From a virus, in IMG/VR virus record IMGVR_UViG_3300008448_000080, positions 1-61,607 of that record: 61,607 bases of DNA; one strand, written 5' to 3'. The notes below the pieces were generated by a model, which was given only the letters and a program-made list of their open reading frames with translations, had not been told where the DNA came from and made no database searches. Made by a program: the position numbers and the translations under genes. Positions within the stretch are counted from its first letter, which is position 1; each line of letters opens with the position of its first letter. Positions 6,259 through 59,113 of the stretch are shown here, piece after piece.

Positions 6259-8709
6259 TCAGAACGGGGGTGCGTTCTTCTTGTTGGGCTGATGCGGCTC
6301 CAGTTCGTTCTGCTGGGCCTCCACCTTGGGCCACTGGAACGGTCCGCCCATGTTCCGGTCCCAGAACTCCCGGACCTCCGACAGGGAGGGTAGGTGGTAC
6401 ACATACACCCGCTTCTTGATCAGGACCTCGAAGCCGTGCTCATTGATCCAGGGCACGTCCATCATCTCCTGACGTGAGAGGAGCTTGTTGGGCGGGAAGG
6501 CCCGGGACATGAACTTGCCGAAGCCGGTGAGGGACATCCGGAAGTTGCGGCCCTGGTCTTTCAGGTCGTTGATGTAGTCCTGGTACAGGCTTTCCTTCAC
6601 CACGCGGCCCTTCCAGTCCTGGTCGGTCTTGAGCATCCGGCCTTCCCACAGCTTTTCGTACATCCACTGCGTCTCCGGGGCCATGCTCATAATCTTCTGG
6701 TCCTGCAGGGCGTCCGTCTGGGGGACCTGGCGAACCTCGAAGGCGCTCAGGTCATAGGTCATCAGGTAGTGCAGCAAGTTCTCTAACCCGCCATCGTCCA
6801 GTTCGTCCTTGATGCGCTTGAAATAGCCGTGATCTTGCTTCTTCCCGTCCCCCACCTCCATGACAAAGAACCGGCGTTCATCCAGGCCAGCGGGCACCAC
6901 CCAGTCCTCGTTGGACGCCAGAATCAAGTGGACGTAGTTGGGCGCGGCTTCCGCGTCCACGCCCTTGCCTTCGATGACCAGGTGCTCCTCCGTGATCAGG
7001 GTCTTGAGCACTGACTCGTGCTTCTTGTCCCCGGCGAAGAATGCCTCATCACCGAACAGCAGGACCGTGTCCCGGAGGTGGGCGTTGAAGGAGCCCACGA
7101 GGTGCTTCGAGTCCGACACCTGCAGGTAATGACGCCCAAACATCGCACCGAGAATCTTGGCAAAGAAGGACTTGCCCGTGCCCCGCTTCCCGCGAAGAAC
7201 CACGGCCACTTCCCCGGGTCCGTCCGGGTGCTGAATCATTCGAGCCATCCAGCCCACAAGGTACTGGAAGTGCTCCGGGTTCCCGGAGCAGACGTTGTCG
7301 CGCACGTGGAGCAGAAAGGACTCGTGCTTGCTCCCCGGGAGGGAGTTGCACGCGAAGCCCCGCCAGAGGTTGTAGGCGTCCTCCGTCTCCCGGCCCGGGG
7401 CGAACAGGATTGTCTCATATTGGCGGCGCTTCGGGTGATCAATCCAGAAGGCTCCTGCGGCCTTCTCGATGGGCTGACCGTTGTCCGAGTGCCCAACCAC
7501 TACCTTGATGTGGCGGTAGCGGTTCCGGAAGTCCTCGAAGGACTGCTTGCTGATCTTGGTCCGGTTCAGGGACAGGTCCATCACCTCCGAGATAATGCGG
7601 CACTTGCCCCCGATGTCGCTGATCACGGCGTGCTTCTCGTTGAGCATCCGCAGCATGGGGTCAACGGCCTCCTCCTGCGCACGTTCGATCTGGCGCAGTG
7701 CATAGCCCTCCCAGTTCGGTTTATCGCGCACGCTGGTGGCGATTTCGTTGGAGCCGGTGATCACCGCAAATATCATCTCCGGCGGTACGTCCGCCCGGAC
7801 CAGATCACAGCAAACTCTGAACAGGGCTTCGGAGCGGGAGGCGTACTTGGTGGGGTCCAGCGGGTCCTGCCCAGTAGCAATCAGCGCCAGCGTGTGGTCA
7901 CTGATCGCCTTGTTGTGTTCCTGGGCCCATTCCTTCAGTTCGTCCGTCCCGATGTCCGGGACGTTGCCCGTGATCTTCACCTTCGGACGGCCTCCGCCCG
8001 CCAGCCCCTGCTCAGACATCTGAACACGGGGGGCGGGGGTGAATTGTTCAATCGGGTAACTGACGTTGTTCCACTCGATCAGGACGGCCAGCGCGGGCCA
8101 ACGGCCCTTCTTGCGCTTCTTGAGCGTGGGCATGTTGATCGTGCCCGGGAGGCGCATGATGCGGTCCACGTTGTGGCAGTGGTCCGCCTGAAACACCTTC
8201 TCCAGCTGGATGTTGTACGCTTCCAGCTCCTGGGCCTTGGCAATGCTGCCGTTGATCTCCAACTTCTCCGAAGGCGACAGCCTCCAAAAGCCCTGAAAGC
8301 CACCGCCGGAGTCCACGATGGCCGTGGGCTTGGGGGTGTAGTTCTGAAGCATCTTCAGGGCGCGTGTTCGCTCCTCCTCGATTTCCTCCCCGGCACGCGG
8401 GTCGATGTCCACGTGGAGCCATTCGAGTCGGGCGATGTCCTCCTTGGAGGCTTTCACGTCCATTGCCCGTCGAACCGGGTTGACGTGGAAGTACACGTTG
8501 CGCTTGCCCTGTTGTTCCTCAATCCACTCAGCGGCCTTCTGCCACTTGTCGGGGGTGAATGTCAGGGTTTCGGTCTTGCCGTCCGGGATGATCGCAGTGA
8601 GAACCCAAGGCCCCTCCGGGCACCACTTCTTCAAGAAGCTGATTGCAGCCTTCGTGTCGTGTTCCGGGAGGGGGCGGGGTTTCGTGAATTCTTCACCAAA
8701 ACGATTCAT
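6259..8709 (-). CDS. DNA primase-helicase (RepB-like primase + SF3-type helicase)
   Basis: The 816-residue replication protein starts at ATG 8709 in an ATGA overlap. The N-terminal third has primase signatures of the RepB/archaeo-eukaryotic type: EWLHVDIDPRAGEE (metal-binding DxD), PTAIVDSGGGFQGFWRL and NVDRIMRLPGTINMP. The C-terminal half is a D5/SF3-like helicase: Walker A GKRGTGKSFFAKIL, Walker B LLFGDEAFFAGD, sensor LILASNEDWVVPAGLDERRF with an Arg finger. It should lay primers and unwind DNA at the fork for the family A polymerase. Its position among polymerase, nuclease and helicase genes supports this. Confidence 0.9.
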   Translation of the reverse strand: MNRFGEEFTKPRPLPEHDTKAAISFLKKWCPEGPWVLTAIIPDGKTETLTFTPDKWQKAAEWIEEQQGKRNVYFHVNPVRRAMDVKASKEDIARLEWLHVDIDPRAGEEIEEERTRALKMLQNYTPKPTAIVDSGGGFQGFWRLSPSEKLEINGSIAKAQELEAYNIQLEKVFQADHCHNVDRIMRLPGTINMPTLKKRKKGRWPALAVLIEWNNVSYPIEQFTPAPRVQMSEQGLAGGGRPKVKITGNVPDIGTDELKEWAQEHNKAISDHTLALIATGQDPLDPTKYASRSEALFRVCCDLVRADVPPEMIFAVITGSNEIATSVRDKPNWEGYALRQIERAQEEAVDPMLRMLNEKHAVISDIGGKCRIISEVMDLSLNRTKISKQSFEDFRNRYRHIKVVVGHSDNGQPIEKAAGAFWIDHPKRRQYETILFAPGRETEDAYNLWRGFACNSLPGSKHESFLLHVRDNVCSGNPEHFQYLVGWMARMIQHPDGPGEVAVVLRGKRGTGKSFFAKILGAMFGRHYLQVSDSKHLVGSFNAHLRDTVLLFGDEAFFAGDKKHESVLKTLITEEHLVIEGKGVDAEAAPNYVHLILASNEDWVVPAGLDERRFFVMEVGDGKKQDHGYFKRIKDELDDGGLENLLHYLMTYDLSAFEVRQVPQTDALQDQKIMSMAPETQWMYEKLWEGRMLKTDQDWKGRVVKESLYQDYINDLKDQGRNFRMSLTGFGKFMSRAFPPNKLLSRQEMMDVPWINEHGFEVLIKKRVYVYHLPSLSEVREFWDRNMGGPFQWPKVEAQQNELEPHQPNKKNAPPF

Positions 8710-9038
8710 GCCTGGGTCTCCCAATAGCCCTTCAGGCGGTCAATGGAGGCTTCGCCCAACTCCATCTTCATGACCCACAGGCGGGTCATCCCGATAGCGG
8801 CTGCGACTTCCCGCTGAGTCATACCGGCGCGGCGGCGGCGCAGCAGGCAGACTTCGTGCGGCTTCATATGTCCCGCGTTGTAGTGCGGTACGTCCTCCGG
8901 GCGTTCGTCCGTCTCCCAGGCCCGGTAGGTGTCCACGTGCACTCCGTAGCGGGCAGCGGCCTGCAACTGGTTCTCCGCCTTGCGGCGGCGCTCCAGCAGT
9001 AGGCTTTCGCCCCGGGTCGGTTTCAGTTCAGCAGCCAT
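8706..9038 (-). CDS. XRE-like transcriptional regulator with two HTH regions
   Basis: The 110-residue basic protein starts at ATG 9038 behind GAGGAG. Residues about 14-45 (RRRKAENQLQAAARYGVHVD) and 68-100 (RRRRAGMTQREVAAAIGMTR) each look like a Cro/XRE helix-turn-helix, the second being the better match. It precedes the primase with an ATGA overlap. It may control early or replication genes, and the repeated promoters are possible targets, but no operator is assigned. Confidence 0.78.
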   Translation of the reverse strand: MAAELKPTRGESLLLERRRKAENQLQAAARYGVHVDTYRAWETDERPEDVPHYNAGHMKPHEVCLLRRRRAGMTQREVAAAIGMTRLWVMKMELGEASIDRLKGYWETQA

Positions 9039-10717: not shown

Positions 10718-10911
10718 ATCAAGCCCTTCTCGTTGGCAATCCACTCCGTCACCGTCAGGGTCACCGACTTCGGACCCTTCACCACGTTGCGGACCTGTGA
10801 CTTGGGCATCCAGATTTCGGCCTCACCCCCGTGGTCGATCAGCAGGGCCTTCTCCGTCTCCCGCTTCACCACGCACTCGATTTCTACGGTGTTCTCGTTG
10901 CTAGTTCTCAT
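10714..10911 (-). CDS. Hypothetical small beta-rich protein, 65 aa
   Basis: The 65-residue product (ETEKALLIDHGGEAEIWMPK in the middle, VTLTVTEWIANEKG near the end) has alternating hydrophobic residues that suggest a small beta barrel. Such single-domain proteins are common in phages, but no function is established that I know of. It overlaps the GIY-YIG gene and the methyltransferase by 4 bp each. Confidence 0.72.
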   Translation of the reverse strand: MRTSNENTVEIECVVKRETEKALLIDHGGEAEIWMPKSQVRNVVKGPKSVTLTVTEWIANEKGLI

Positions 10912-11456
10912 TTAACGCTCCTTCTAAGTCTTGCTGTTTCAAGTTTTGCCAGCATCCGCTGGCGGTATTCGGGGTCAGCCCACTGTCGCTGTGCGCTTTC
11001 GCGGCGCTTCTCCCGATAGGCGTCTGAGTTGTAACCCGCATTGGGGTCCTTCCTCAGTCGCTTATGGGTTTCACTTTGTTTCTGACGGTACTCCGGTTGA
11101 TTGAATCCTGACCCGGGGTCTGCCCAGACGGACTTCCGGGCGGCGCTCAAGACACCCCGTGTTTCTTCCGAAGGTACAATGCCCTCACCCCCAGCGGTCA
11201 GGTTGTACCCGTGAGGGTCCATGGTCCCTCGTTCCCGGATGTGATGGGCCTCCCGTTCATTCAACATCTCCGTACAACATACCTCAATCACCTCGAAGCG
11301 GAAGGCCCCCACCCCGTGCTTACCCAAGGCGGCGTTCAGCTTTGGGCAACTGGAGCCCAAGCGGTGATCGTTCCACCGCTTCTCAATGTTCCGAGATTGC
11401 CCCACGTAGGCTTTCCCGGAATCACGGTGGGTGATCAGGTAGATGCCGCAGGTCAT
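10908..11456 (-). CDS. GIY-YIG homing endonuclease with NUMOD3-type repeats
   Basis: The 182-residue protein has the GIY...YVG core (CGIYLITHRDSGKAYVGQS) and the Arg/His helix NIEKRWNDHR. The catalytic Glu lies in LNEREAHHIRERG, followed by PHGYNLTAGGEG. The C-terminal half has short NUMOD3-like DNA-binding repeats (AARKSVWADPGSG, RQKQSETHKRL, REKRRESAQRQ). It is free-standing and overlaps the polymerase stop by 4 bp. No intron is seen in the polymerase frame. It belongs with the GIY-YIG genes at 43.7 and 54.3 kb. Confidence 0.9.
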   Translation of the reverse strand: MTCGIYLITHRDSGKAYVGQSRNIEKRWNDHRLGSSCPKLNAALGKHGVGAFRFEVIEVCCTEMLNEREAHHIRERGTMDPHGYNLTAGGEGIVPSEETRGVLSAARKSVWADPGSGFNQPEYRQKQSETHKRLRKDPNAGYNSDAYREKRRESAQRQWADPEYRQRMLAKLETARLRRSVK

Positions 11457-14614: not shown

Positions 14615-15667
14615 TCACGCTCCTGTACCGTAGTCCACGCCATCGTCCTGCGCACGGGCCTTGCGGGCTTCGTGCGCGGCGCGGCGGCGCTCAATCCACT
14701 CGATTGCGGCCAACCTCCAATCGGAAGCGGCCACCCGTCCGAGGGCGTCCATTGCCCCGTCGAAGTCCTTGGCCTTGTAGGCGGCGTGAGCCTGAGACAT
14801 CGGGATGGCCACCTTGCGGAAGAAGGGGTCACGGAAGCCCAAGGCATCCGGCTCCTCCATGAACATCTTCAGCTCCGCGTCCCACTCCTCCCGGGGCAAC
14901 GACATCAGCGGGAAGGGCTCCACCGCTTCGGCAGCATACGGGTCCGGGGTGGGCGCTCCGGTCAGGGGGTCCGGGGCGTAGTCTGCCAACGGGGAAACCT
15001 TCGCCAGCACGTCCTTGTAGGCGTGAAAGTTCGCGGACACTTGACGGTACACGCCCTGCGGGACGCCCACGGAGCGGGCCACGTACTCGTGGAGGTAGCT
15101 GAAGTGCACGGCGTTGGCACCGTAGGCTCCCCACACCAGATCGTTCGAGCGGTTGGTGACCATCATGTCCAGGCGTCCGTCCGATGAGACTTGAAACACG
15201 GCCTGAAGGTTGCACGGGAGGTCCTTGCCAGAGCGGCCCAAGTCAGCATCCGCGTCCCACATCGACAGGACCTGGCGGCGGTCATCCGGGTTCGCCTTCA
15301 GGGCGTTGATGATCTTGGGCAATTGGTCATCGAAGAAGAAGTTGCGCCAGCGGAAGCCGTAAGCCCCGTGGAACACCTTGCCATCGTCCGAGTAGGTGCG
15401 CATGCGCTCCACGTAGCGGGCCACGAACTCCACATCACGGCGTCCCGCCAGCATCCAGAGGCTTTCCACCAGGTGGAAGAACGGGTTGCAATCCCGCTCC
15501 GCCCAGAACATCACCCGCTCCGCAGGGCGGAGGTACACCGTGGTCACCGGCTCCGGGAACATGCGCACGGGACCGTTGCGGCTTTCACGCTCCACGCCTT
15601 CGTTGTTGAGCTGATACAAGGCTTCGGGAAGGGCCTGTTGTACGTTGCGTGCTTTGATGACTTTCAT
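14615..15667 (-). CDS. Thymidylate synthase-like dUMP hydroxymethylase
   Basis: The 350-residue protein has the thymidylate-synthase fold: Cys nucleophile in KDLPCNLQAVFQV, phosphate-binding DDRRQVLSMWD, and the substrate loop NRSNDLVWGAYGANAVHFSY. The residue after the catalytic Cys is Asn rather than the His of true thymidylate synthase, as in hydroxymethylases. An Asn in the substrate loop favours dUMP over dCMP. The predicted product is 5-hydroxymethyl-dUMP, the precursor for DNA containing 5-hydroxymethyluracil. It is the last gene of the modification cassette and overlaps its neighbour with ATGA. Confidence 0.85.
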   Translation of the reverse strand: MKVIKARNVQQALPEALYQLNNEGVERESRNGPVRMFPEPVTTVYLRPAERVMFWAERDCNPFFHLVESLWMLAGRRDVEFVARYVERMRTYSDDGKVFHGAYGFRWRNFFFDDQLPKIINALKANPDDRRQVLSMWDADADLGRSGKDLPCNLQAVFQVSSDGRLDMMVTNRSNDLVWGAYGANAVHFSYLHEYVARSVGVPQGVYRQVSANFHAYKDVLAKVSPLADYAPDPLTGAPTPDPYAAEAVEPFPLMSLPREEWDAELKMFMEEPDALGFRDPFFRKVAIPMSQAHAAYKAKDFDGAMDALGRVAASDWRLAAIEWIERRRAAHEARKARAQDDGVDYGTGA

Positions 15668-17819: not shown

Positions 17820-19286
17820 TTACTGCTGGACCACCACCTTGATGGCTTCCAGCTTCTTCTTGATGCGGTCAGGCTGATCAGCGTCAGGCCCAGCCACGTA
17901 CTTGAAGTCAGGGGCGCGAAGGGCGCGGGCGGCTCCGAACACTTCCGAGCCGCAACGGCCCTTCAGCTTGTCTTCCGGTTTCGCATCGTCCGGTGCGCAA
18001 TACAAACAGCCCGAAGGGGCGCAGGCTTTCACCTCCTCGAAGTTCTCTGACAGGTCCTTCCGCGTGAACATCGGAACCTTCTGGCCGTGGCACTGATCGG
18101 CGGTCGTGAACTGACGGCCCACGCTTTGCCAACCACCTCCGCCTTCGCCCTTCGCGTACTCATAGCACGTGGCGTAAGTCATGCCCAGTTCGGTGGCCCA
18201 CTTCTGGTACATCGCATGAGCCTCCAAGCGGTAGGCTTGGGCAATCGTGCGCTGCGCACCGGCCTGGTTCTCCGTGAACAGGGCTTGGAACTTCCCGGCC
18301 CGCTCCGCTCCGAACCGCTTGTGAAGGCGCTCCACCATCGCGGGAGCCCAGCTGTAACCGGCCTCCACGAACTTGACGATGACGTGGTTGTTGCCGACTT
18401 CCGCCAGACGCTCAAACAACCGGCGGATGTCCTCGTGGGAGGTAATCCCGGGCACCACCGGATTCACCTGAATCGAAGTGTAGATGCCTTGGTTGCGCAG
18501 CTCACGGATTTCGTCCAGGTGCGCCTGAAGGGAGATAGCCCCGGGCGACAACTTGTGCCAGTCCGCATCGTTGCCCGTGTTCAAGGACTTCTGGGCATAG
18601 CTGAAGGGGTTTTGCTTCAGAAGGTCGAAGGCCCAATCAGGGTAGTGGAGGCGGGACAGGAAGAACACCGGCAGGCCCAAGCGCACGAACTCCTCCGCAC
18701 CGCGTTGGGTGTTGTGGTACACCTCCTCAATCGGCAGGAACGGGTCCGTGAAGCTGGAGAAGTAACCGGCGGCGGAGGTGTGGACCTTGGACAGCTGGTT
18801 GCGGACCTGCTCCCCGTAGTTCATCGGCACGCTGATCAGGCCAGAGCCCCGATAACCCCGGAACCCGCTGTTGACATAGCAGAAGGCGCAACCCACGGTG
18901 CAATACCCGCCATAAGGCTCCGTCAGGATAGCTTCCGAGAAGCAAGGACGCGGACGGCTCCCCTGCTTGTCGTTGTGCTTGTCCTGGTACCAACCTTGCA
19001 GCGGCTTCGCGTTCGGAATGCGCAGGTGCGGCACGTAGGTCTTGTCATTGAATCCGAGGTACACCTTGACCTCCTTCTTGGACTCATCGGGGGCGTTGCG
19101 GACCATGCCAACCTTCGCCATGCGGAACTTCGCACGCATGCCGGTCAGCGGGTCATCCTCCTCCTCGATTGGGCCCAGGAACTCACGCTGGTTCGGGTCC
19201 GGGCGCATGAAATACTTGTAAGCCTCCTGGGCTTCTTCGCCTGTGTTCTCCTCCAGCCATTTGCTGTGGTCGTGTTCGCTTTGCAT
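17820..19286 (-). CDS. Radical SAM enzyme of thymidine hypermodification
   Basis: The 488-residue protein starts MQSEHDHSKWLEENTGEEAQ at ATG 19286, 20-odd bases downstream of a promoter. The cluster motif GYCTVGCAFCYVNSG is CxxxCxxC, supplying the three Cys ligands of the 4Fe-4S cluster. Later Cys groups (KACAPSGCLYCAPDD near the C-terminus) may bind further iron or zinc. In phage M6 the equivalent enzyme isomerises N-alpha-glycinyl-thymidine to its C-alpha-linked form in DNA. The same role is inferred here from the surrounding transferase, PLP enzyme and kinase genes. Confidence 0.82.
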   Translation of the reverse strand: MQSEHDHSKWLEENTGEEAQEAYKYFMRPDPNQREFLGPIEEEDDPLTGMRAKFRMAKVGMVRNAPDESKKEVKVYLGFNDKTYVPHLRIPNAKPLQGWYQDKHNDKQGSRPRPCFSEAILTEPYGGYCTVGCAFCYVNSGFRGYRGSGLISVPMNYGEQVRNQLSKVHTSAAGYFSSFTDPFLPIEEVYHNTQRGAEEFVRLGLPVFFLSRLHYPDWAFDLLKQNPFSYAQKSLNTGNDADWHKLSPGAISLQAHLDEIRELRNQGIYTSIQVNPVVPGITSHEDIRRLFERLAEVGNNHVIVKFVEAGYSWAPAMVERLHKRFGAERAGKFQALFTENQAGAQRTIAQAYRLEAHAMYQKWATELGMTYATCYEYAKGEGGGGWQSVGRQFTTADQCHGQKVPMFTRKDLSENFEEVKACAPSGCLYCAPDDAKPEDKLKGRCGSEVFGAARALRAPDFKYVAGPDADQPDRIKKKLEAIKVVVQQ

Positions 19287-19314
19287 CGTCTGATTCTCCG
19301 GTAGTGTGTGAAAA

Positions 19315-19343
19315 AGTATAGGGGGTGAGGGGGAAGAAGTAAA
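19315..19343 (-). promoter_or_regulatory. Sigma70-type promoter, TTTACT-17-TATACT
   Basis: TTTACT (19343-19338) and TATACT (19320-19315) are 17 bp apart on the minus strand. The copy gives a very short leader before the radical SAM gene with CCGGAG as ribosome-binding site. It splits the hypermodification cassette into two transcription units. Confidence 0.78.
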
Positions 19344-19352
19344 GTGAACCAA

Positions 19353-19515: not shown

Positions 19516-20355
19516 TCAGTCCCCAATGTTCCAGAACACGATGGGCTTGTGAGCCAACGGCTCCAAGTTCTCCGGCTGTTGAAGCCAGTTCCACGCCTTC
19601 TGGTCATAGTAGGGGTTGCACGGGAACGGAACGGACACGCTGCTGGGCGCGGCGTCAGCGTAGTTGTAGCCCTCATCCACGAAGCGGACCCGCTCCGTCA
19701 GCTGAATCCCGGCGGCACGTTCGATGTATGCGCGGGTGGAGTCCTGACTGCGGGAGTACCCCATGTTGAGAATGACGTCATACCCGTCCAGGATACCGGC
19801 CTGCTTGAAGCCCAGGAGGACCCCGGCGGCAACCGTCCCGGAGCTGATGGACAGAATCAGGGTGCCTTCGCCCGGGAGGTCCGGGGCGGTGCGCAGGGCT
19901 TCTGCGGCGTTCTCCGTGATCGACTCCGGCAGCTTCAGGGCGTTGGGCATCAGGTAGCCGTTCTGGTAGCCCTCCATCAGGCGCTTGCGCGCTCCGTGGT
20001 ACAGGACTGCGGAGCGGCCCGCCGGAAGGTCCACCAGGTCCGCTCCGAGCTGGCGGGCACGCTGCTGCTGAATGCGCGGGGCGTCCGCGTTCCCGTCCTT
20101 CTTGTAGCGGGGCCAGAAGTCCACGCACTTGCGTCCGAGGTGGTTGCAAACGTAGGCCACCGCGTGTCCGGCCTTCGAGTGGTACGTGTCCAGGACCCCG
20201 ATGACCTGCTCAGGGCGGTTCTTGATATGGGCCACCACCCCGCGTATCTTGCTGAAGGACGGACCGGGCAGCGGGGCGCAAAGGTCCTCACGCTTGACGA
20301 TGACGGAGACGCCCCGGAGGTCGTGGACTTCGAGCGGTGTGTTGTTGACGATCAT
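19516..20355 (-). CDS. PLP-dependent enzyme of thymidine hypermodification
   Basis: The 279-residue protein starts [40 protein letters not shown] contains the likely Schiff-base Lys (SKIRG, about residue 36) of fold-type II PLP enzymes such as D-cysteine desulfhydrase. [20 protein letters not shown] is the Gly/Ser-rich phosphate-binding loop. In M6-type pathways a PLP enzyme decarboxylates the amino acid already attached to the thymine, giving an aminoethyl group. The ATG at 20355 overlaps the transferase stop (ATGA). The long N-terminal extension in this frame is shadow. Confidence 0.8.
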
Positions 20356-21230
20356 GATTGCTCCTTGGGCATGTGGTGGAGGAAGGCGCGGGCGGCGGGG
20401 CACGAAGCGGCCCAGGGTTCGAGTCCGGTGTTGATCTCCCGGATGTCGTTCCAGATCGGGTAGTGACCATTCATGTGCGACTTCCACTTGCACAGAACCG
20501 TCTCCACCTCCTGGATGTTGATTGGGCGGTCGGACAGGGGCGGGGCTTCGAGGTCCCGGAAGTGCCCAATCAGGTACTCCGCCACCCCGTTCAGGATGAC
20601 CTCCCGCTTGGGCTTCGCGTTCTCCGGGTACTTGTGGCCCTGACGGAGCTGCCACAGCACCATCGCGGCCTTCTCCGGGTCCTTGAACATGAACACGGCG
20701 GCGTTGTCGAAGTCCACCGGGACCTCCATCACGCGGTCCATCATGTCCGCAATCTTGAACCCAATCCATGGTCCGAAGCCGTTGTGCTCCTGAGCACGCT
20801 GCGAGACGGTCCGGAAGGGCAGGCGCTCATCCTCCGTTGCCCTTGCGCCCACGTACAGGGCGAAGTTCTCCGGGCGGTCCCCGTACCGCTTCTGGAGGGA
20901 CGATACAGAGTTGACCGCAATTGCTGCGCGGAAGTGGCGGCGCTCATGTCCCCGTGGCCATCGTCCGCCCACGGGGGTTTCGTTCGCGTTCTCCGCTGCG
21001 ATCATCATCCAGTGCCAGAACTCCTCCCCCTCCTTCTCGCTGAGGAAGGACGCAACGGCGGCGCTGTAGTAACACCAATATGCGACCATCCAGCGGCAGA
21101 GCTGGGGGATGGAGAAGTCACCGGCCTTCTCCGCCTTCACCAAGGCGATGTAAATGGGGTCCAGGTCCCCGGAGGTGATCAGTTGTCGCCCAAAGGACTC
21201 GATGTCCAGGCGTGGGTAGTTTCTGCTCAT
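20352..21230 (-). CDS. Amino acid:DNA transferase (AADT/aGPT-Pplase2-like)
   Basis: The 292-residue helical protein has the N-terminal block [17 protein letters not shown] and [20 protein letters not shown], then [17 protein letters not shown] and [18 protein letters not shown], which match the glycosylase-like alpha-glutamyl/putrescinyl thymine transferase family. Such enzymes displace the (pyro)phosphate on 5-phosphomethyl-dU in DNA with an amine or amino acid, glycine in M6. It is the first gene of the cassette's upstream half. The ribosome-binding site before ATG 21230 is weak. Confidence 0.82.
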
Positions 21231-25513: not shown

Positions 25514-26356
25514 TCAGAACACGGGCTTGCCGCCAGCGGCTCCCTGCGCACCTTCGTCAGCGGAGCCGGGGGCCTGCGACTCATAGGCAGCGCGGGCCTT
25601 GCCGCCTTCGATCAGGGTCTTGATCGCCACGGCGGATTGGAACAGCGGGTCATTGGGGAGCAGGCGGGCTTCGATGGCGTTGGAGCCGTCGAATGCGATG
25701 TCCCAGTTGAAGAACTGACCCTTGTTGTTCTTCTCCGACAAGGTCTTGAGGCGGTACTTGTGGGCGAACAGCGGAGCCGGGATGCGGCGTCCATCCGGCA
25801 GCGGCAGCTGGATGGTCTTGGCCTTGGTCATCCAGCCCTTGTACTTCTTGATCTTCGAGGAGGAGAAGGCCAGGACGGCTTGCGACACGTTCTCATCGTT
25901 GTCGATGGCGACACCGTACACGTAGAACGTCTCAATCAGCTCGTTGCCGTCCGGGGTCTTGTAGTCACCGAAGGGTTGGTTGGCCACGCAGTTGCGGACC
26001 AGATCGCTGGAGGGCTCGTGGATGCCCACGAAACCACCGCCCGCGTCACGGGGCTTCCATTCCACGTACACGTGCTGAGTCGTGGCCGGGACGAAGGCAA
26101 TGCCGGTCTTGCCTTCAAAGATTTCACCCGTCACGGTGTTCAGAATCATGCCCTGACGCAAGGCATCGTTGTCCTGCAGCTGCGGGCTGAGGGCCTGCAG
26201 AATCTGAAGGAACGGGATGCTGTAGTCATCGCTGGTCTGGTTCTCGAAACCCGCACCGGCGTAATCGGCATATGCGCCATACTCCGCCACGGCGGTGTTT
26301 TGGTTCGCAACTGCGACTTCGGTGCTTGCTGCTTCGGTTTTCTTGCTGGTAGCCAT
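25514..26356 (-). CDS. Putative phage ssDNA-binding or recombination protein
   Basis: The 280-residue acidic protein has a low-complexity N-terminus (MATSKKTEAASTEVAVANQN) and then DDYSIPFLQILQALSPQLQD and GKTGIAFVPATTQHVYVEWK. Related phage proteins with this 'PF/RLLQALSP...G...I.FVP' pattern sit beside helicase genes and are often only annotated as hypothetical. The terminator after it and AGGAG before it suggest high expression, as for an ssDNA-binding protein. The Gly/Ala-rich acidic C-terminus ending KPVF weakly resembles SSB tails. The function is inference. Confidence 0.6.
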   Translation of the reverse strand: MATSKKTEAASTEVAVANQNTAVAEYGAYADYAGAGFENQTSDDYSIPFLQILQALSPQLQDNDALRQGMILNTVTGEIFEGKTGIAFVPATTQHVYVEWKPRDAGGGFVGIHEPSSDLVRNCVANQPFGDYKTPDGNELIETFYVYGVAIDNDENVSQAVLAFSSSKIKKYKGWMTKAKTIQLPLPDGRRIPAPLFAHKYRLKTLSEKNNKGQFFNWDIAFDGSNAIEARLLPNDPLFQSAVAIKTLIEGGKARAAYESQAPGSADEGAQGAAGGKPVF

Positions 26357-27393: not shown

Positions 27394-27738
27394 TCAACCG
27401 AATAGATTTTGGGCCACCACCGCGATGTAGCGTTGGTCCTTCCCGCTCCACTGAAGCAAGGACACGCGGCCCTCGTTGAAGTCCGCTGCGAGGGCGACAG
27501 ACAGCCCAATCAGGACCGGGTTGCCCACCAAGAGCAGGTGGTCCCCGTCCCGGTAGTCCTTCAGCTTCTCCCGCAACTCCGCAATCACCGGCTCCGGGCG
27601 GAAGGGCGCGGCAGTAGGGCTCAGCAGGTAAGTGAGCTCACCGAACTCCGCTGCCGGTTCGAGGTCAAACTTGGGCTCAAACTTCTGTTTGTCCCGGTCC
27701 CAGCGATGCTGGTTTTGTACAACAAATACACGATTCAT
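27394..27738 (-). CDS. Hypothetical protein, 114 aa
   Basis: The product starts MNRVFVVQNQHRWDRDKQKF in an ATGA overlap with the SNF2-like gene. The middle (YRDGDHLLLVGNPVLIGLSV) and the end (LLQWSGKDQRYIAVVAQNLF) are a recognisable conserved phage protein of unknown function. Coupling to the ATPase upstream suggests a common task in DNA transactions. Confidence 0.75.
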   Translation of the reverse strand: MNRVFVVQNQHRWDRDKQKFEPKFDLEPAAEFGELTYLLSPTAAPFRPEPVIAELREKLKDYRDGDHLLLVGNPVLIGLSVALAADFNEGRVSLLQWSGKDQRYIAVVAQNLFG

Positions 27739-29429
27739 AACCATTCCTTCAGGCGGTCGCCAGTAATCTGGGACGCCACGTTGAACTTGTTTCTCAAGGA
27801 CTCCACAACCTTTTCGTCCACCGAGTCCTCAGCAACCAAGTCGATGTACAGCACCGGGTTGTCCTGACCGATACGGTGGGCACGATCTTCCGATTGTAGG
27901 CGATCGATCAACTTGAAGCTGTTGGAGTAATAAATGACGGTCTTGGCGGCGGTGAGCGTCAGGCCCGTAGCACCGGCGGCGGGGTTGCCCACGAACACCT
28001 TGGCCTGCTCCTCCGGCGGGATAGCCTCCCGCCCAGTCACCTGCGCCCCTTCGTACAGCGTGCGCTCCCCTTGGAACAGGGCCTTGGCCTCCGCCCGCTC
28101 GTCGTCATTCACCAGTCCGTCATACCGCACGGCGCGGATGCCCCGGGCGCGGAGGGCTTCGAGGATGAGCGTGATGTCCATCTGGAACCGGGCCCAGACA
28201 ATCACCTTGTGCTGGGACTCCTCGATCAGCTCCACCAACATGTCCAGGCGGCGGTTCGGTCCGGGTATCGTGTACAGCGGCTCCTTCTCATCGTCCGTGG
28301 GGATGTACCCGCAAGTGATCTGCTGAAGGCGGAGGAGCCGGGTGATTGCGAGGGCGGCAATCACGGGCGTGGTGCCTTCGAGGTTCAGGGCGTCCGCTCC
28401 CCCGCAATCGGGGCAGGGGTAGATGAAGCCGTCAACCTCCACTTCCTTCCGTCCGTGGCACGTGGGGCAGACCTCCTCCCCGGGCGGGAGTTCGAGGGCT
28501 TGCGCTTCCTTCTCCAGTCCGCCCGTCTCCAGCCAGACGATGAACTCATCACGCATCTGGCGGTACAACTTGCCCTGCTCCGGGGTCATCGGGAAGAACC
28601 GCTTGTTGTACAGCTTGGGCGGGAGGTCCAGCACGTCATCCTTCGTCACGCGGGAGGAGACGGGCTGCAGGAGGGCGTTGAGCTGATCCAGGCGGCGATA
28701 GCCCACCAGCACGTCATACTCCCGGCCCGTGTTCTGCTTTGTCTTCGGGTCATAGGCGGTAGGGTTCCAACCCTTCTTCCAGATGCCAAAGTGGGTCTTG
28801 AACTCCGTGAAGGTGCCCAAGCCGTTCTCCTTCCAGTACCCCTCGTGCAGGAACTTGATCTGGGTGTAGGCGTCGAACGGACCCTGCGCAATCGGGGTCC
28901 CCGTGAGGACCCGGCGGAAGGGCGCATATTTGGCGGACTTGAGGATGGACTTCGTGCGGTCCGCGTCCGGGCTTTTGATGTAGTGGGCCTCATCCAGGAC
29001 GTACAGCAGGCGGCGCTTGTCGAAGAAGTCGATCAACGCACGCTTCCCGGTAGCCGTCATGAATGCGTCATAGCTGATCGTCAGCCACGCGAAGCCCTTG
29101 TGCTCGATGACCGCCTTGACGGCCTGCTTGTGCCACTTCGTATCGGCCCGGGGGGACTGGTAGTGGAAGGCGCGAACGTGCCCAATCACATCGTCCGGCA
29201 CGTGGTCCGGGATTTCCTTCTCAGTCCAGTTGCGGTGCACCCCGTTCGGGGCCACGATGAGAACCCCGTCAATCAGGCCCCGGTTCCAGAGCCAGCAGGC
29301 GGTGTCGATGGTCAGCTTGGACTTGCCGGTGCCCTGTTCCCAGAAGATGGCGCGGGCTTCTTCCTCCCGGCTGCGGTCCCATTCGTCCTTCTGATGGCCG
29401 AAGGGGGTGGTTTTGAACTGATAATCCAT
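27735..29429 (-). CDS. SNF2-family DNA helicase/ATPase
   Basis: The 564-residue SF2 protein has motif I FWEQGTGKSKLTIDTA, motif II LLYVLDEAHYIKS, motif III RVLTGTPIAQGP, and motifs V-VI AAGATGLTLTAAKTVIYYS and SEDRAHRIGQ. A CPTC...CPDC zinc knuckle is inserted near residues 340-360. Phage SNF2-like proteins are thought to remodel protein-DNA complexes during replication or recombination. It is the first gene downstream of twin region A, so it opens the replication module. Confidence 0.92.
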   Translation of the reverse strand: MDYQFKTTPFGHQKDEWDRSREEEARAIFWEQGTGKSKLTIDTACWLWNRGLIDGVLIVAPNGVHRNWTEKEIPDHVPDDVIGHVRAFHYQSPRADTKWHKQAVKAVIEHKGFAWLTISYDAFMTATGKRALIDFFDKRRLLYVLDEAHYIKSPDADRTKSILKSAKYAPFRRVLTGTPIAQGPFDAYTQIKFLHEGYWKENGLGTFTEFKTHFGIWKKGWNPTAYDPKTKQNTGREYDVLVGYRRLDQLNALLQPVSSRVTKDDVLDLPPKLYNKRFFPMTPEQGKLYRQMRDEFIVWLETGGLEKEAQALELPPGEEVCPTCHGRKEVEVDGFIYPCPDCGGADALNLEGTTPVIAALAITRLLRLQQITCGYIPTDDEKEPLYTIPGPNRRLDMLVELIEESQHKVIVWARFQMDITLILEALRARGIRAVRYDGLVNDDERAEAKALFQGERTLYEGAQVTGREAIPPEEQAKVFVGNPAAGATGLTLTAAKTVIYYSNSFKLIDRLQSEDRAHRIGQDNPVLYIDLVAEDSVDEKVVESLRNKFNVASQITGDRLKEWL

Positions 29430-29830
29430 GTGTGAGGCTCCTTTTCTATGATCACAGCGAAGTTTAGCCCGGAACTGGCCCAGAAGGGAACCCGAACACG
29501 TGCGCTTGACTTAGTGGGTTTCTACTTGACTTCGGGACCCGAAGAAGTATAGAACCCAAGTACATGTCTAAGCCCCACATTTATATGGGTTTTCTTATCT
29601 TTTATTATTATTATTACTTAACTTACTTAACTTACTTACCTTCATTCCCCGGGAGCCGTTCTGGGCTGTCCCGCCGGTTCTATCGGGCGAACTGAAAAAG
29701 AAGTGGAGTAAGTCAAGTAAGTCAAGCGCACCGTGCCGAAGTTCCACCCCCGTATGGGTTTAATGTGCGCTTGGGTTCTATACTTCTTCGGGCACGAAGT
29801 CAAGTAGGGCGGCGCGAAGTCAAGCGCAGC
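29430..29830. promoter_or_regulatory. Twin intergenic region A: inverted repeats around AT-rich core
   Basis: This 401-bp gene-free region is homologous to 58,620-59,113. In order on the plus strand it has GCGCTTGACTT (29,503), CTACTTGACTTC, GAAGAAGTATAGAACCCAAG (29,541), an AT-rich core with TTATTATTATTATT and ACTTAACTTACTTAACTTAC (29,590-29,638), a conserved block TTCCCCGGGAGCCG/TTCTGGGCTGTC (29,645-29,670), AGTAAGTCAAGTAAGTCAAG (29,708), and an inverted copy GCTTGGGTTCTATACTTCTT to GAAGTCAAGTAG (29,768-29,807). TATACT/TTGACT hexamers occur on both strands. The role may be replication origin, module promoter or recombination site; none is proven. Confidence 0.7.
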
Positions 29831-30196
29831 TCAGTGGGTCACCTTCTTCGCCCACTCCACCACACCCATGACGATCAGTGAGAACAGCCCCGTGACGAAG
29901 ATGCCGGTGAGGACCAGCATGCCCTTCTTCTTGATCTCCTCCCCGGACTCCCGCCAGGCCCGGAGGTGCTGGAAGTCTCGCTGCATCGCAATCGGGTCGG
30001 AGGAGTCCACGCCCATCTGGAGGAGGGTCTGGCGGACGGCTTCGGCCACCAGCTTTGTGATTTCCTCGTGATTGAGGCTCACCTTCTCAGCAGCGGCGGT
30101 TGCGGCCTTCTCTGCTGCTTCTTCAACTTCAGCCTTCGCGGCGCGGGTAGCGGCACTGATGGCCAATTGTTCGATTTCAGCAGCAGTCAGTGCCAT
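29831..30196 (-). CDS. Small membrane protein (DUF6127-like), 121 aa
   Basis: The N-terminal 60 residues are an Ala/Glu-rich helix (AATRAAKAEVEEAAEKAATA). The conserved phage segment DSSDPIAMQRDFQHLRAWRE follows, then a transmembrane helix near the C-terminus (MLVLTGIFVTGLFSLIVMGV). Such proteins occur at the ends of tail gene clusters; the function is unknown, with an accessory or lysis-related role possible. It is the last gene of the morphogenesis module. Confidence 0.75.
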   Translation of the reverse strand: MALTAAEIEQLAISAATRAAKAEVEEAAEKAATAAAEKVSLNHEEITKLVAEAVRQTLLQMGVDSSDPIAMQRDFQHLRAWRESGEEIKKKGMLVLTGIFVTGLFSLIVMGVVEWAKKVTH

Positions 30197-31765: not shown

Positions 31766-34700
31766 TTACGCTTCGATGATTTCCAGCACCGGGGAACTTC
31801 CGGCCTCAATTACCCGGAGGAGCGGAACAGCGGCCCCCTCCACCAAGTTGCCAGCCGTGGACGATACCCCGAAGGTGTCCCCGAAGGCAAGGGAGGCGGA
31901 GCCCTCGAACTTCAACTGCTGGGTCATGAATTGACCGTCCTTCTGAACCCGTCCGAAGCGGCCCGGGGCGATGTTCTCCAGGGCGATGCCGGCCACCAGC
32001 ACGCGGGCATCCGCGTTGGTAGCCTTCCGGCAGAGACGGCGGGAACCGTCGAAGGATACGGCCTGACCCTTCAGGACCACAGCGTTGCTGTTATTCTGCA
32101 GCTTCAACTCCCGGTCCAGCTGGTACACCTTGGCCACCCCGTCATACGGGTTCAGCTCCGAGAAGGCCCGCCCAGCACCATCGTTCAGCAACGTGTTCAG
32201 AGTGCTGACGATCGTGGCGTTCGATTGTCCCGTGAAGTTCTGATTCAACGTGAGGGTCTTGGTCACAGCTCCTCCGTCGAACACGATGTTCAGAACCTTG
32301 TTCACGCTGGTGCAGTCGCCCAAGCGGGTTCCGAGGTCGATGCCTGCGAATCCGTTGTAACAGCTGATCGCGTGAGCACTCCATACCCGGGCGGCGTAGC
32401 CGGAGCCCCCATATTGATACTCGGGGGACACGCCGAACAACGGTGCCGCAGCGGAACCGGACACCGTCACCGAGCTTCCCACGGCATCCAAGCTGCGCAA
32501 CTCCAGCACGTTTGCGTAGTTGTAGGCGTCCCAGGCCACGGGGGAAGAACTGGAGATGAACACTTCTGTTTCCGAGTTCATGTTGCCCCGGTAGTTGTAG
32601 GGTTGGTTGGACAGCATCGGCAGAGGGGAGAAGTTCAACCGCCCCTCCACGTGCGAACCCTTGATCACCAAACGGTCCGGGGTTCCGGAGCCCAGGCACT
32701 GGATGACCAGGGCGCTTCCGGAGGTGGTCGTGCAAATACTCTGGGACTGGTCCAACTCTACGTGCACAGGCTCCGCAAAATCACGATGAGTGTGGAAGTA
32801 GAAGGGACTGGTGCGGCTGATCCACTGAGTGCGGCGGCTGATGATCGTCTGACCGCTGTGCGTACCACAACCCCAGGCGTGTTCCGAACCCCATACAGCA
32901 GCGGGGTCCCCACCATTGGCGATTTGGTAGGCGCGGGCCTCCTCGTTGCCGAGGTGTTCCACGTAGCAATCCTCAGTCTCCTGATAGGCCCGGAGCCCGG
33001 AGGGTCCACTGTCCGAGTGGATTGGGTAGCGCATATTCTGGCAAGTCACCTTCACGTTCCGGACGCGGCCCGTGCCGTTCCAGTACCAAGTCTGGTGGTT
33101 CGGGATTTCGCTCACGGGGGTGCTGGCGGGCATATAGCCCTTGAACCAGATTTGGTCCCGTTGGCCAATGCCCACCACGTCAACGAAGTCCGGGAACCAG
33201 GTGTCCAGGTCCGTGTAGATGCCCTCATACACCTTGTACAGCACCCGCTTGTTAGTGTCGCTTCCTCCGCCTTCGGCAGCGATAGCTGCGGCCAGGGTCG
33301 TGTAGTTCCCGGTGCCGTCCGGTTTGACGGTGATGGTCTTGATGTACGTGAAGGCGTTGGACGAAACCGGGGTGTACAAGCCTTGACGGAACGTCAGCGC
33401 CATGTCCGCCAGCGAATAGCCCAAGGACCCGGGCGTGTTGTGCGTCCCACCCACGGACTCGAACACCAGCTGCATGCCCGCGTAGGTCACCCAACCTTCC
33501 GTGGTCCGGGCTCCGCTGGTGGACACTTGAACGAACGGGCGCAGGTGGGTTTCCGTACCGTCGAAGCGGTACGTGAATTCAGCCAGGAACGTGTTTTTGT
33601 CCAACTTGCGGAAGCTGGAAGTGCGAGCAGCCTGAGTCAGAATGCTGCCCACGTACTTCGAGAGGTTCCCGCCCAACCCGGTCGTGTCGGTGATGTCGTC
33701 AGACGTGCGCAGCAGGACGTAGATGCGAACTTGGGCACCCTTGTACTTGGCCACGTGAGCCACGGGGAATTTGAATGCGCAGTAGGTCGTCAGGCCGGAG
33801 GACCCCGCTGGAATCGTGAAGCCCCAACCACCGTCCCGGGAGGTTGCCCCGTTGAACGTCTCCGTCAGCGTCTCCGAGTAGTCATACAGGTCCCCGGACG
33901 TGACCTTGTTCTCCAGCAGGCGGCGATGAATCACCGCTTCGTTCTGCTCCAAGTCCTTGAGCTTGTAGCTGACCGTCACGGGGCTGTAGTACCCAGCGTT
34001 GGTAGCCGTGCGGCCTCCAATTTGGATGTACAAACCCACGTACTCCGTCAGGGCTCCTTGAATCACGTAGTCCCCACGAATCCGAATGCGCGTGGTGCTC
34101 ATTTGCTCCACGATCAAGGACCCCGAAACAGCCATGCCCGTCTCGTTCGCCCCGTCCAGGAAGCCGTTGATGTTTACCCAAAACGGAGCAGTGCTGTAAA
34201 AGTTGGCCGGGCATTCAACTTCCAGCTCCAACTCAACCGTCGAACCTTCGCTGAGGCGTTCAAGGTGGAGGGGGAGTTGATACACGATGTAACTGTTCAC
34301 GCCAGTCGAACCTTCGGGGATATTGATCAGCCCAGAAGTAAGGTTCACGGAGGCTCCGTTGAAGGCTTGCCCGTAGCCGTCGAAGATCGGAAGATCACCC
34401 ACTGGGGTCAGCCCATAACCCGCCAGACGTGCCGTGTAGAAGTCCATCACATCCGTGAAGCCCCGGGCGTCCATCGGTACGATGAATTGACCCACGGCAG
34501 ACCAACTCAGGGTGCTGGCCAGGGCTCCGGTGGAGTTCTTCTGGAGGTACATGCTCACGGTTCCTTCGCTGCCCGAAGCCAGGTAGTCAGCCGTGAGCAG
34601 GTAGGAGGTGCTGCTGATTTTCGTGATCAACTTGTTCGTCACGGTTCCGATAGTTCCCGTGGCGTCCACTTGCAGGAACCAATCCGGACCGTCCCCCGCA

Positions 34701-56538: not shown

Positions 56539-58086
56539 TTACATGTCGGACTGCTTAACGCCACGCAGCTTCTTGCGTACACGGTAGCGGATGGCGTCCC
56601 CGATGTGGTCCTCAGCGTCCGTGTCCACGTCATCCAGGTTCTTGTCGTCCCGGGGGAGCACTGGCAGGGTTTCGAGGGTTTGGTGACACCAGTCGAAGAT
56701 GAACAGCCCCGGCGTCTCCCGAAGTCCGCCCCCGGGCGGAGGGCAGGCCCCCTTCAACATCTTGCGTATCTGCTCCCAACCCTGCTTCCGGCTTCCCGGC
56801 CCCTTGTCGGCGGGCGTCCAGCGGCATCCCCGCTTCTCCATGTCCACCGCGATGCTGTTGCCGTTCTCCACGTCGAAGATGGAGCTGTCAGCGGGGCCTG
56901 GGCGAACCTTGGCGGTGATGTCCCAATCGTCCTCCCGGTCCCGGATACCCTGCCCCACGTCCGTTGCGAGCATCCGGACGCCCTCGTTGCGGCTCCCGTT
57001 CCACCCGTACCACTCCTGGATCAGGTACAGGTCCCCGCGCACACGTCCGTAGGTGCGGCCCTGGTACTCGAAGGGCTCCCCGTTCGACTCCGCCCACCAC
57101 AGCGCGGCGAAGGGCTTGGAGCTGCCCCAGTCGAAGCTGCGGTCAATCTTCCACCGCTTCGGAATGAGGTGGAGCGGGACGGCGGGAACCACGTGCACGT
57201 TGGTCCGCCAGATGTCATCGAACATGCCCCCGGCGATGATGTCCCAGGAGCCATGGAGCCATGCTGCGAGTTCGGACGGGTTCCGAGCAGCGGCCCTGAT
57301 CTTGCTGATGTACTCCGGGTCAGCGTGGAGCAGGATTTGGTTCTCATAGATCGAACCGTGAATGGCGACACGCGGCGGCTCCCGTTCGCCTTCGCGCATG
57401 GAGTCACGGATGACGATGCCCCGGGAGTGGGGGAGGCGGAACCGGGACTTGACCCAGTTGTGCCCCGGCCCATAGGGGTTCGTGGTGGAGCGGTAGCAGC
57501 GGGGCATTCCCGGCTTCGTGGAGCGGCAGCACGACATCATCACCGTGTAGCACTTGTCATCCGGCCAGTTGCACAGCTCCTCCCAACCAATCCACGGATA
57601 GGCGTGGCCGTGGTAGTTCCAATAATCGTCTTGGGACTTCATATGGCGCAGCAGCAACTCCTCCCCTGAAGGGAAGGTCCACTTGTGCTCCACCTTGTTG
57701 TAGCGGGCTCCGGGGAAAATCTTGCGGAACCACTTGGTGGTCTTGTTGATCACGTCCGACAACTGCGGGTACGTCTGACGGAACAGGATGCCCCGCCATT
57801 CGCTCCCGTAGCCCTTCCCCACGTGCTGGAGGAAGTCCATGAGCAAGCAGTCGGTCTTGCCTGGGCCACGGGTCCCTTCATACAGGACCTCGAAGATGGG
57901 ATGAGCCTGAAGGAAGGCCAGCTGGGAGCCGTACTGCGGACACCACGTGGCCTCCATCTCCTTGCCCGTCACCGGGTCCCGGTAGAACCCGCGCAACTCC
58001 CCGGTTTCGACCTCCCGCCACTCGATGGGATACCCTGGGCGAACGGCCAGCGCCACCGCGTTGGAAATAGCGTTGGTGGTGTTCAC
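56539..58086 (-). CDS. terL: Terminase large subunit
   Basis: The 515-residue packaging motor starts at GTG 58086 (GTGA overlap). ATPase motifs are Walker A YEGTRGPGKTDCLLMDF and Walker B/catalytic Glu in YPWIGWEELCNWP. The nuclease domain has RSFDWGSSKPFAALWW (Asp), a central DVENGNSIAVDM region, and the last Asp in AEDHIGDAIRYRV. It cuts and pumps concatemeric DNA into proheads. The Gly-x-x-Gly-Pro-Gly-Lys-Thr loop is a variant of the usual Walker A. Confidence 0.93.
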   Translation of the reverse strand: MNTTNAISNAVALAVRPGYPIEWREVETGELRGFYRDPVTGKEMEATWCPQYGSQLAFLQAHPIFEVLYEGTRGPGKTDCLLMDFLQHVGKGYGSEWRGILFRQTYPQLSDVINKTTKWFRKIFPGARYNKVEHKWTFPSGEELLLRHMKSQDDYWNYHGHAYPWIGWEELCNWPDDKCYTVMMSCCRSTKPGMPRCYRSTTNPYGPGHNWVKSRFRLPHSRGIVIRDSMREGEREPPRVAIHGSIYENQILLHADPEYISKIRAAARNPSELAAWLHGSWDIIAGGMFDDIWRTNVHVVPAVPLHLIPKRWKIDRSFDWGSSKPFAALWWAESNGEPFEYQGRTYGRVRGDLYLIQEWYGWNGSRNEGVRMLATDVGQGIRDREDDWDITAKVRPGPADSSIFDVENGNSIAVDMEKRGCRWTPADKGPGSRKQGWEQIRKMLKGACPPPGGGLRETPGLFIFDWCHQTLETLPVLPRDDKNLDDVDTDAEDHIGDAIRYRVRKKLRGVKQSDM

Positions 58087-58619
58087 TTCGTACCCTCCGG
58101 GCGTCCGGTGGTGCCCTTGGCCATAGCCCCGAACTGCTCCTGCCAATCGTCAATCGTGGCCGGAGCGGCGGGGATGATCAGCACGCCCCCGTTGCCCATG
58201 TCATAGGCTCCGGACTCCTTCCCGGGCTCCCGGAACTCTGCGGAGCGGGCCTTGAGCAGCTGCGACAACAAGCCGTCGCTGTAAATGCGCTCATAAGCAA
58301 TGATCTCATCCTTGAACTTCCCGCCCACGATAGGCTTCTGTACCCCGTTCACTGCCCGCTCAATCGCGGCCTTGATCAGGACCTCATCCGTGTGACGACA
58401 TTTGGCCTGCTGCACGGCCTCCTCAAATTCAGGGTCCTTCTTCCGGGCGTCCGCAATCGCGGTGTCTGAGACCCCTACCAATTCAGCGGACAGGCTCATC
58501 AGCCCGGACTTGCGAAGTTCATACAAATAGCGCAGCTTGATCTCCTCCGTGACCTTCACGGGAGGCTTGCGCCAATCCGGCTCCCTCACTGCGGGTGGTT
58601 TCGATTTGTTGGCGGACAT
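58083..58619 (-). CDS. terS: Terminase small subunit
   Basis: The 178-residue protein starts MSANKSKPPAVREPDWRKPP at ATG 58619 behind GGAGGGCG. A helix-turn-helix (LMSLSAELVGVSDTAIADAR) lies in the first half and helices for oligomerisation follow (EFEEAVQQAKCRHTDEVLIK). It overlaps terL by 4 bp and is the first gene of the morphogenesis module. Confidence 0.85.
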   Translation of the reverse strand: MSANKSKPPAVREPDWRKPPVKVTEEIKLRYLYELRKSGLMSLSAELVGVSDTAIADARKKDPEFEEAVQQAKCRHTDEVLIKAAIERAVNGVQKPIVGGKFKDEIIAYERIYSDGLLSQLLKARSAEFREPGKESGAYDMGNGGVLIIPAAPATIDDWQEQFGAMAKGTTGRPEGTK

Positions 58620-59113
58620 CACGCCCTCCTTTGACAATGGTTCAACGTCCCGGGGCATCACGCCCAAGGAACTTGTCACGGAGTATAGCGGTTGAGGGTG
58701 ATTTCGACAAGGTCGCCCCCGCCCGCGAAGTCAGGACCACGGCCCAACCAACTTCCGCCCAACAGATCGTGTGCGCTTGGGTTGCGCTTCAGTTTCCACC
58801 GTTCTACTTGACTTCCCACACGAAGAAGTATAGAACCCAAGTACAGCCCTAAGTCCCAGTAAATAAAGGCTTTTCTTATCTTTTATTATTATTATTACTT
58901 AACTTACTTAACTTACTTGGGATAGTTCCCCGGGAGCCGTTCTGGGCTGTCGGTCCGCGTTTGTCGGGCGAATTGAAAAATAACCCAAGTAACCCAAGTA
59001 AGTCAAGCGCAGATTGCGTAACCTCCAGCCCCGCTTGAGTTTCCTGGCAACTCCACACTATACTTTATCCCAAGTAATTGCGAGGTGAAGTCAAGTAACC
59101 CAAGCGCACTGAT
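58620..59113. promoter_or_regulatory. Twin intergenic region B: inverted repeats around AT-rich core
   Basis: This gene-free region is homologous to 29,430-29,830 and shares the same order of elements: GTGCGCTTGGGTTGCGCTTC (58,771), TTCTACTTGACTTC, CGAAGAAGTATAGAACCCAA (58,821), AT-rich core (58,871-58,918), TTCCCCGGGAGCCG/TTCTGGGCTGTC (58,926-58,951), AAGTAAGTCAAGCGCA (58,996) and a diverged inverted copy CTATACTT...GAAGTCAAGTAACCCAAGCG (59,058-59,107). Its left end holds the terminase promoter. No coding frame or tRNA is recognised in it. Confidence 0.7.
58682..58710 (-). promoter_or_regulatory. Terminase promoter, TTGTCG-17-TATACT
   Basis: TTGTCG (58710-58705) and TATACT (58687-58682) are 17 bp apart on the minus strand, 60-odd bases before the terS start. 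It is the only clear promoter for the packaging genes. Confidence 0.75.

Follow-up and report, generated by a model that had tools for sequence, protein, structure and literature searches.

The window, that is the whole stretch of 61,607 bases analysed here, is the near-complete genome of a Yuavirus-like bacterial virus (Mesyanzhinovviridae). It contains two copies, A and B, of one intergenic element, and these copies are probably replication initiation sites in some form. They are the best candidates for paired replication start points that also carry promoters. This reading is based on the iterons, the unwinding-type core, the twin placement, the independence of orientation, the concerted change of the two copies and their association with a PrimPol-SF3 protein. 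An origin-like role was one of the possibilities named in the original prediction. It has gained support from the conserved position, the AT core and the iterons, from the co-evolution of the copies and from the way the twin tracks the primase-helicase.

The nearest named relatives were Pseudomonas phages of the genus Yuavirus (MP1412, LKO4, YuA, M6) and Bordetella phages such as CN1. The DNA identity to the Yuavirus relatives was about 82–83% across 35–36% of a 24-kb query. The genes of the window are on the minus strand almost throughout. No tRNAs were found in the window, known RNA families gave no match, and intrinsic terminators showed no clear surplus over shuffled sequences.

Two further gene groups were observed. 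Thymidylate synthase-like, radical SAM, PLP-enzyme and Pam3_Gp34-family genes (14615-15667, 17820-19352, 19516-20769 and 25514-26356) suggest a thymidine hypermodification pathway like the one known from phage M6. In the stretch from the HTH/primase genes to the DNA polymerase gene, there are a DNA methyltransferase gene (9875-10744) and a homing-endonuclease-like gene (10908-11456). Each of the two was present in just one of 19 relatives, which gives them the appearance of recent insertions.

Anatomy of the two elements

The best self-match of the window joined A and B, with 80.7% identity over 243 bp (29520-29761 / 58802-59042; E 3.9e-56). Hence, the two regions hold the same element, as had been proposed, with mismatches at about 19% of the aligned positions. 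Both regions had been described as gene-free. This was correct for A (29430-29830, 401 bp), the longest stretch without minus-strand ORFs, while the bounds of B had to be moved to about 58,680-59,090, with one spurious 60-aa ORF excluded. Exact blocks of 48, 26, 25 and 17 bp occur in the same order in both copies. The 26-bp block was identical as described, and the AT-rich 48-bp core, previously called nearly identical, is in fact fully identical. The features are as follows.

29500..29830, minus strand: element copy A, between the helicase gene (27735-29429, minus strand) and a gene at 29831-30196 (minus strand)
58770..59113, minus strand: element copy B, upstream of the terminase small and large subunit genes
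29590..29637, minus strand: 48-bp core of A, identical to the core of B and the most AT-rich 50-bp site of the genome
58871..58918, minus strand: 48-bp core of B, identical to the core of A
29645..29670: GC-rich block of A (26 bp), with an exact counterpart in B; its folding was not above that of shuffles
58926..58951: GC-rich block of B (26 bp), the counterpart of that of A
29540-29564 / 58821-58845: shared 25-bp block, exact match between A and B
29714-29730 / 58995-59011: shared 17-bp block, exact match between A and B
29677..29692, minus strand: conserved box of A, TTCGCCCGAYAAATCG in the form TTCGCCCGATAGAACC
58960..58974, minus strand: conserved box of B, TTCGCCCGACAAACG, the counterpart of the TTCGCCCGAYAAATCG box of A
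29701..29730, minus strand: second iteron array of A (TGCGCTTGACTTACTTGACTTACT...), inverted with respect to the core array
58977..59011, minus strand: second iteron array of B (CCCAAGTAA), 9-bp period
29501..29560, plus strand: left inverted arm of A (TGCGCTTGACTT...GAAGAAGTATAGAACCCAAG), 85% inverted match to 29770-29828
29770..29828, minus strand: right inverted arm of A
58771..58845, plus strand: left arm of B
59058..59109, minus strand: right arm of B (CTATACTT... AAGTCAAGTAACCCAAGCGCA)
27735..29429, minus strand: SNF2-type helicase gene downstream of A, present in all twin genomes
58083..58634, minus strand: terminase small subunit gene downstream of B (phrog_4044)
6259..8724, minus strand: candidate initiator, a PrimPol (AEP)-SF3 helicase with a winged-helix-like C-terminal domain

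Read in the sense of the genes, the element begins with an outer arm with TGCGCTT, followed by a GAAGAAGTATAGA box, the array CTTGACTTACTTGACTTACTT and the conserved box TTCGCCCGAYAAATCG. The GC-rich block, a second, inverted array AAGTAAGTTAAGTAAGTTAAG, an AT-rich run of simple repeats and the right arm in the opposite orientation complete it. The two iteron arrays, which are inverted relative to each other, thus flank the GC-rich block, and the inner array abuts the AT-rich run, the weakest DNA of the genome. The simple repeat is (TAA)n in the window and (AAG)n or (TATC)n in relatives. In the minus-strand reading, the core of A consists of the AT-rich triplet run (TAA)n and two 9-bp repeats AAGTAAGTT. 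The conserved box TTCGCCCGAYAAATCG could be aligned across YuA, SN1, G003 A, G004, G005 and L025.

The repeats were restricted to the two copies: all nine occurrences of AAGTCAAG in the window were inside A or B, and the same held for AAGTAAGT (6/6) and TAATAATA (6/6). Both elements thus show several site-specific short direct repeats, as expected of an iteron-type origin. They also have the neighbouring AT-rich, easily melted region of an origin, with the cores of A and B being the two most AT-rich 50-bp windows of the genome (84% vs 68% for the third).

Outer arms had been reported for both regions. In A they form a true inverted repeat (60 bp, 85%, of which 23 bp are perfect), whereas in B only short pieces were found (13 bp perfect). 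Folding of the GC block was no better than that of mononucleotide shuffles in nine of ten copies, and a hairpin or ssi-type structure in this block was accordingly rejected; a primase hairpin is not supported.

Conservation and joint change of the copies in relatives

YuA, LKO4, M6 (G001), SN1, CN1 and several IMG/VR genomes have the element at the two corresponding places, upstream of both the helicase gene and TerS. A homologous element is present at these places in MP1412, too. Absence at either boundary in related phages had been named as an outcome that would speak against the proposed element; its retention in relatives speaks in its favour. In the Bradleyvirinae PaMx11 and Epa5, the twin was present at both places (76% over 370 bp and 79% over 209 bp), with a sequence quite unlike that of the nearer relatives. 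In these two phages, which represent two genera, copy A is inverted with respect to its gene and B is not, and the direction of the downstream genes is kept. The fixed orientation to the controlled gene that would be expected of a paired promoter or operator was thus not seen.

Twins were also found in G014 and G022–G029, whose primase-helicases are only about 45–55% identical. Among genomes with a full-length homologue of the primase-helicase, 20 of 27 had the twin, as did three of four with a diverged homologue; as the genomes are related, these counts are not independent. None of the nine comparison genomes with no or a very distant homologue had it (where AT sites separated by a few hundred bases matched each other in these genomes, the windows overlapped, and such hits were left out of the count). 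No twin was detected in G008, G009, G015, G016, G031, G032 and G033 despite their primase-helicase, where blastn may miss diverged twins.

Elanor, VBv52 and PaMx74, which have a different primase N-terminus, showed two AT outliers with shared sequence, and one copy was directly downstream of the primase gene. There were exactly two top AT sites in each (Elanor (W06): 22083 and 62084; VBv52 (W11): 20173 and 40503; PaMx74 (W07): 15897 and 58535), with a common inverted block around TTTCCTGG/CCAGGAAA. RDJL2 (W05) was rejected as a twin carrier: its two AT outliers are equal (6215 and 32548) but have no sequence in common. Repeats of the GCTATACA type are numerous in its second AT region (32548), which may be a single origin.

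A and B were at AT rank 1 to 3 genome-wide in all 12 genomes ranked. A published analysis describes genomes of the family as circularly permuted with headful packaging (PMC11946847), and distances on a ring are therefore meaningful. The distance from A to B was 40–61% of the genome length in ten genomes, values that are not independent of each other due to the shared gene order. Cumulative GC skew showed no turn at A or B in ten genomes, and bidirectional firing would therefore leave no visible mark.

The two copies of a genome were more similar to each other than to those of other genomes. When A was compared with the B copies of all genomes, the closest one came from the same genome in 18 of 19 cases, and none of 100,000 permutations reached the observed total. 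Each genome has its own short motif, which is often exclusive to its two copies. The fraction of such 8-mers located in A or B was 9/9 for AAGTCAAG (window), 17/21 for AAGGTAAG (G005), 10/10 for AGTCAAGT (G004), 7/7 for AACCTAAG (G003), 9/9 for TTAAGCAA (G014) and 5/5 for ACTCTAGT (Epa5). This is the pattern expected of a sequence-specific protein acting on both sites, aided by gene conversion, which we infer to be the homogenising process. The copies of G022 were 99.5% identical over 216 bp, and those of G023 had exact common stretches of 127 and 112 bp.

The contigs of G022 and G023 begin and end inside the element (L292 start, L294 end; L295 start, L297 end). Such breaks are expected when an assembler meets near-identical twins, and they could flag twin elements in other virus groups.

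The candidate initiator and the promoters

Only two proteins of the window were present in all 22 other twin genomes tested: the SNF2-type helicase and the primase-helicase. The latter matched the Pfam families RepB_primase (weakly) and DUF5906. Structurally, its AEP domain matched the S-2L PrimPol (Z 19.1) and RepB' (Z 15), and its SF3 helicase matched the NrS-1 CTR (Z 25 over 373 residues) and SaPI5 Rep (Z 18). A phmmer comparison with NrS-1 gave an E value of 2.6e-10. The protein thus combines an AEP domain with an SF3 helicase related to the NrS-1 CTR, as in NrS-1-type proteins, and its helicase is fused to a primase as in P4 alpha. No Pfam match to Toprim, the P4 type of primase, was found in it at E 0.1.

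The C-terminal domain alone was modelled at pLDDT 93 and aligned to winged-helix DNA binders, with Z scores below the level that proves kinship. Its alignment to the P4 origin-binding domain (Z 5.7, rmsd 2.3 Å, 66 residues) was below the confidence mark of Z 8, and Foldseek alone gave no significant match for this domain. It was the least conserved domain in all 32 distant homologues (31% identity vs 64% for the helicase core), in keeping with a constantly changing DNA target of this domain. A small HTH protein (8706-9044) is encoded directly upstream of the primase-helicase and is an alternative candidate for binding the repeats.

The YuA GenBank record lists promoters with measured "medium activity (1000 MU)" at 489-568 and 33,014-33,160, one inside each twin element. 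They are at the same relative place in both, in the first repeat array in the sense of the genes, and reportedly come from a promoter-trap assay. For copy A, this promoter-bearing part of YuA corresponds to the array listed above at 29701..29730. Based on this record, the elements are likely transcribed toward their modules. In the window, a sigma-70-like site was found in B (TTGACT-18-TATTTT at 59006-58977).

Two other promoter-related candidates were discarded as hallmarks of the element. Convergent sigma-70 promoters in the arms (TTGACT-15/16-TATAGA) are present in the window but are not conserved in the arms of YuA or LKO4. The GAAGTATAG box, which had been counted among the ordered parts of the layout, was not specific to it. 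This box is one of twelve dispersed copies of a promoter-like repeat in the window (CTATACTT), eight of which are outside A and B. The YuA record labels repeats of the GAAGTATAG kind "putative sigma70 promoter requiring phage-encoded cofactor". On the plus strand, the repeat reads AAGTATAG (gene sense CTATACTTC) and was found at 1212, 1541, 5989, 9599, 19314, 22234, 27358 and 27373. It appears to head many genes, and several copies have TTTACTTCTTCGG about 17–20 nt upstream.

Proposed replication initiation, its alternatives and known systems

We propose that A and B are two copies of one initiation element, placed near-opposite on the circularly permuted genome. The PrimPol-SF3 helicase (6259-8724) would bind the iterons via its C-terminal winged-helix domain, assemble as a hexamer, melt the AT-rich core and prime DNA synthesis. 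The promoter inside the element would read toward the downstream module, and the bound initiator could thereby also influence how strongly the early (helicase) and late (terminase/structural) modules are transcribed. Gene conversion and a common binding protein would keep the copies alike. Either both copies may fire, or one may be the origin and the other a required partner site (cf. ori and crr of P4).

The missing skew signal, the seven primase-helicase genomes with no detected twin and the low Z scores of the C-terminal domain count against this proposal. Much of the evidence also fits a purely transcriptional role, namely the promoters and the positions at the heads of modules. A and B would then be paired transcription-control regions without a role in replication, the repeats being operators of a phage regulator that coordinates the early (A) and late (B) modules and the AT-rich core a promoter UP-type or bent-DNA feature. 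The 1000 MU promoters of YuA, the sigma-70-like site in B, the CTATACTTC promoter-like box in the arms and the HTH gene adjoining the primase gene are all in line with this. However, A is flipped with respect to its gene in two genera with unchanged gene order, and the Elanor-type copy follows the primase gene instead of heading the helicase gene. Moreover, the HTH gene could be recognised in just 13 of 19 twin genomes, and none of the three Elanor-type genomes was among these. An unwinding element also explains the extreme AT content and the varying simple repeats (TAA, AAG, TATC) better than a promoter does. We consider an exclusively transcriptional role rather unlikely. What stands of the earlier suggestion of paired control regions is the promoter annotation in both YuA elements, and the element is probably both origin-like and a control region.

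Within replication initiation, a narrower version has one true origin and one accessory site for looping, handcuffing or copy control, served by the same initiator. P4 provides the precedent with its two cis regions, in the Yuaviruses proper, the simple repeat is AAG in copy A but TATC in copy B, and the Elanor-type phages have one copy beside the initiator gene. Both copies nevertheless show the full anatomy including the AT-rich core, and they are near-identical in G022 and G023, so that this division of labour appears somewhat doubtful. Far less probable are recombination, resolution or packaging sites, with arms and repeats as targets of a recombinase or terminase and the twins as joints of module exchange. 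Modules do meet at the elements, B adjoins the terminase genes and the homogenised copies must recombine with each other. Yet the window proteins scanned gave no match to a recombinase family, a packaging site needs no copy at A, and recombination between direct repeats at a distance of 30 kb would split the genome into halves. The twin also follows the primase-helicase: genomes with a terminase homologue but without a close primase have none. Thus, nothing favours the dedicated recombination joint that the original prediction had considered, though the near-identical copies in two related genomes do show homogenisation. An assembly artefact or chance duplication, which the contigs of G022 and G023 might bring to mind as assemblers break at repeats, can practically be dismissed: the copies of the window diverge from each other, and the twin is present in the independent isolates YuA, LKO4, SN1, CN1, PaMx11 and Epa5.

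Replication initiation thus remains the preferred reading. Tentatively, and with some reserve, it may be extended to the tailed-phage group as a whole (Mesyanzhinovviridae and relatives). This group might replicate from two near-opposite homologous origins that evolve in concert, are bound by a fast-diverging PrimPol-SF3 winged helix and double as module promoters. If true, such a pair of matched origins, twin, orientation-independent and co-evolving within the genome, would be out of the ordinary for a tailed phage. It would also offer a natural series for studying the joint change of specificity of an initiator and its sites. Coupling of promoter and origin would link replication to module expression, and the exact sequences are available. 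Yuavirus-type Pseudomonas phages are often isolated, and their replication start appears undescribed. Literature searches found no published description of the twin element or of an origin in such phages, and neither an origin nor an intergenic element is mentioned in a review of the family from 2025.

The proposed arrangement has features in common with several known systems, each of which differs from it in other respects. P4 needs two separate initiator-bound cis regions, ori and crr, with short repeats in both and AT-rich DNA at ori; its alpha protein consists of a primase, an SF3 helicase and a C-terminal winged helix. Likewise, the same repeats are found here in two separate regions, A and B, and a primase-SF3 protein with a C-terminus predicted to be winged-helix-like is encoded. 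Unlike here, the primase of alpha is of the bacterial type (Toprim) and not an AEP, and the repeat sequences differ. The regions described here are near-opposite in a 60-kb tailed-phage genome and show concerted evolution. Winged-helix SF3 initiators occur in both P4 and pRN1; the P4 protein attaches to repeats of the origin, opens the DNA and makes primers (PMC4234260).

The NrS-1 primase-polymerase is the closest solved homologue of the C-terminal half of the primase-helicase. Its genome contains two copies of an 8-nt recognition site, one per strand, which are proposed origins (PMC7102993). These two single 8-mers are together at the genome centre, whereas each site here is a 330-bp element with iterons and AT-rich DNA, and a new fold has been reported for the NrS-1 Tail domain.

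SaPI replicons have a self-loading SF3 initiator as well (the structural match with Z 18). The SaPI ori has iterons around an AT-rich stretch, with element-specific sequences. In contrast to the window, there is one origin per island, no twin arrangement and another host group. RSF1010 oriV is similar in its RepB'-type primase domain (weak Pfam match to RepB_primase; structure Z 15), its iterons and its AT-rich region. Its functions are split over RepA, RepB' and RepC, and it uses ssi hairpins, whereas no hairpin above shuffles was seen here.

The pRN1 protein ORF904 resembles the candidate initiator in joining an AEP domain to an SF3 helicase and a C-terminal winged helix, the last of which is predicted in the candidate. 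Unlike A and B, the pRN1 origin is a single stem-loop without iterons. It closely follows the initiator gene (PMC4234260), and one copy of the element has a comparable place in Elanor, VBv52 and PaMx74.
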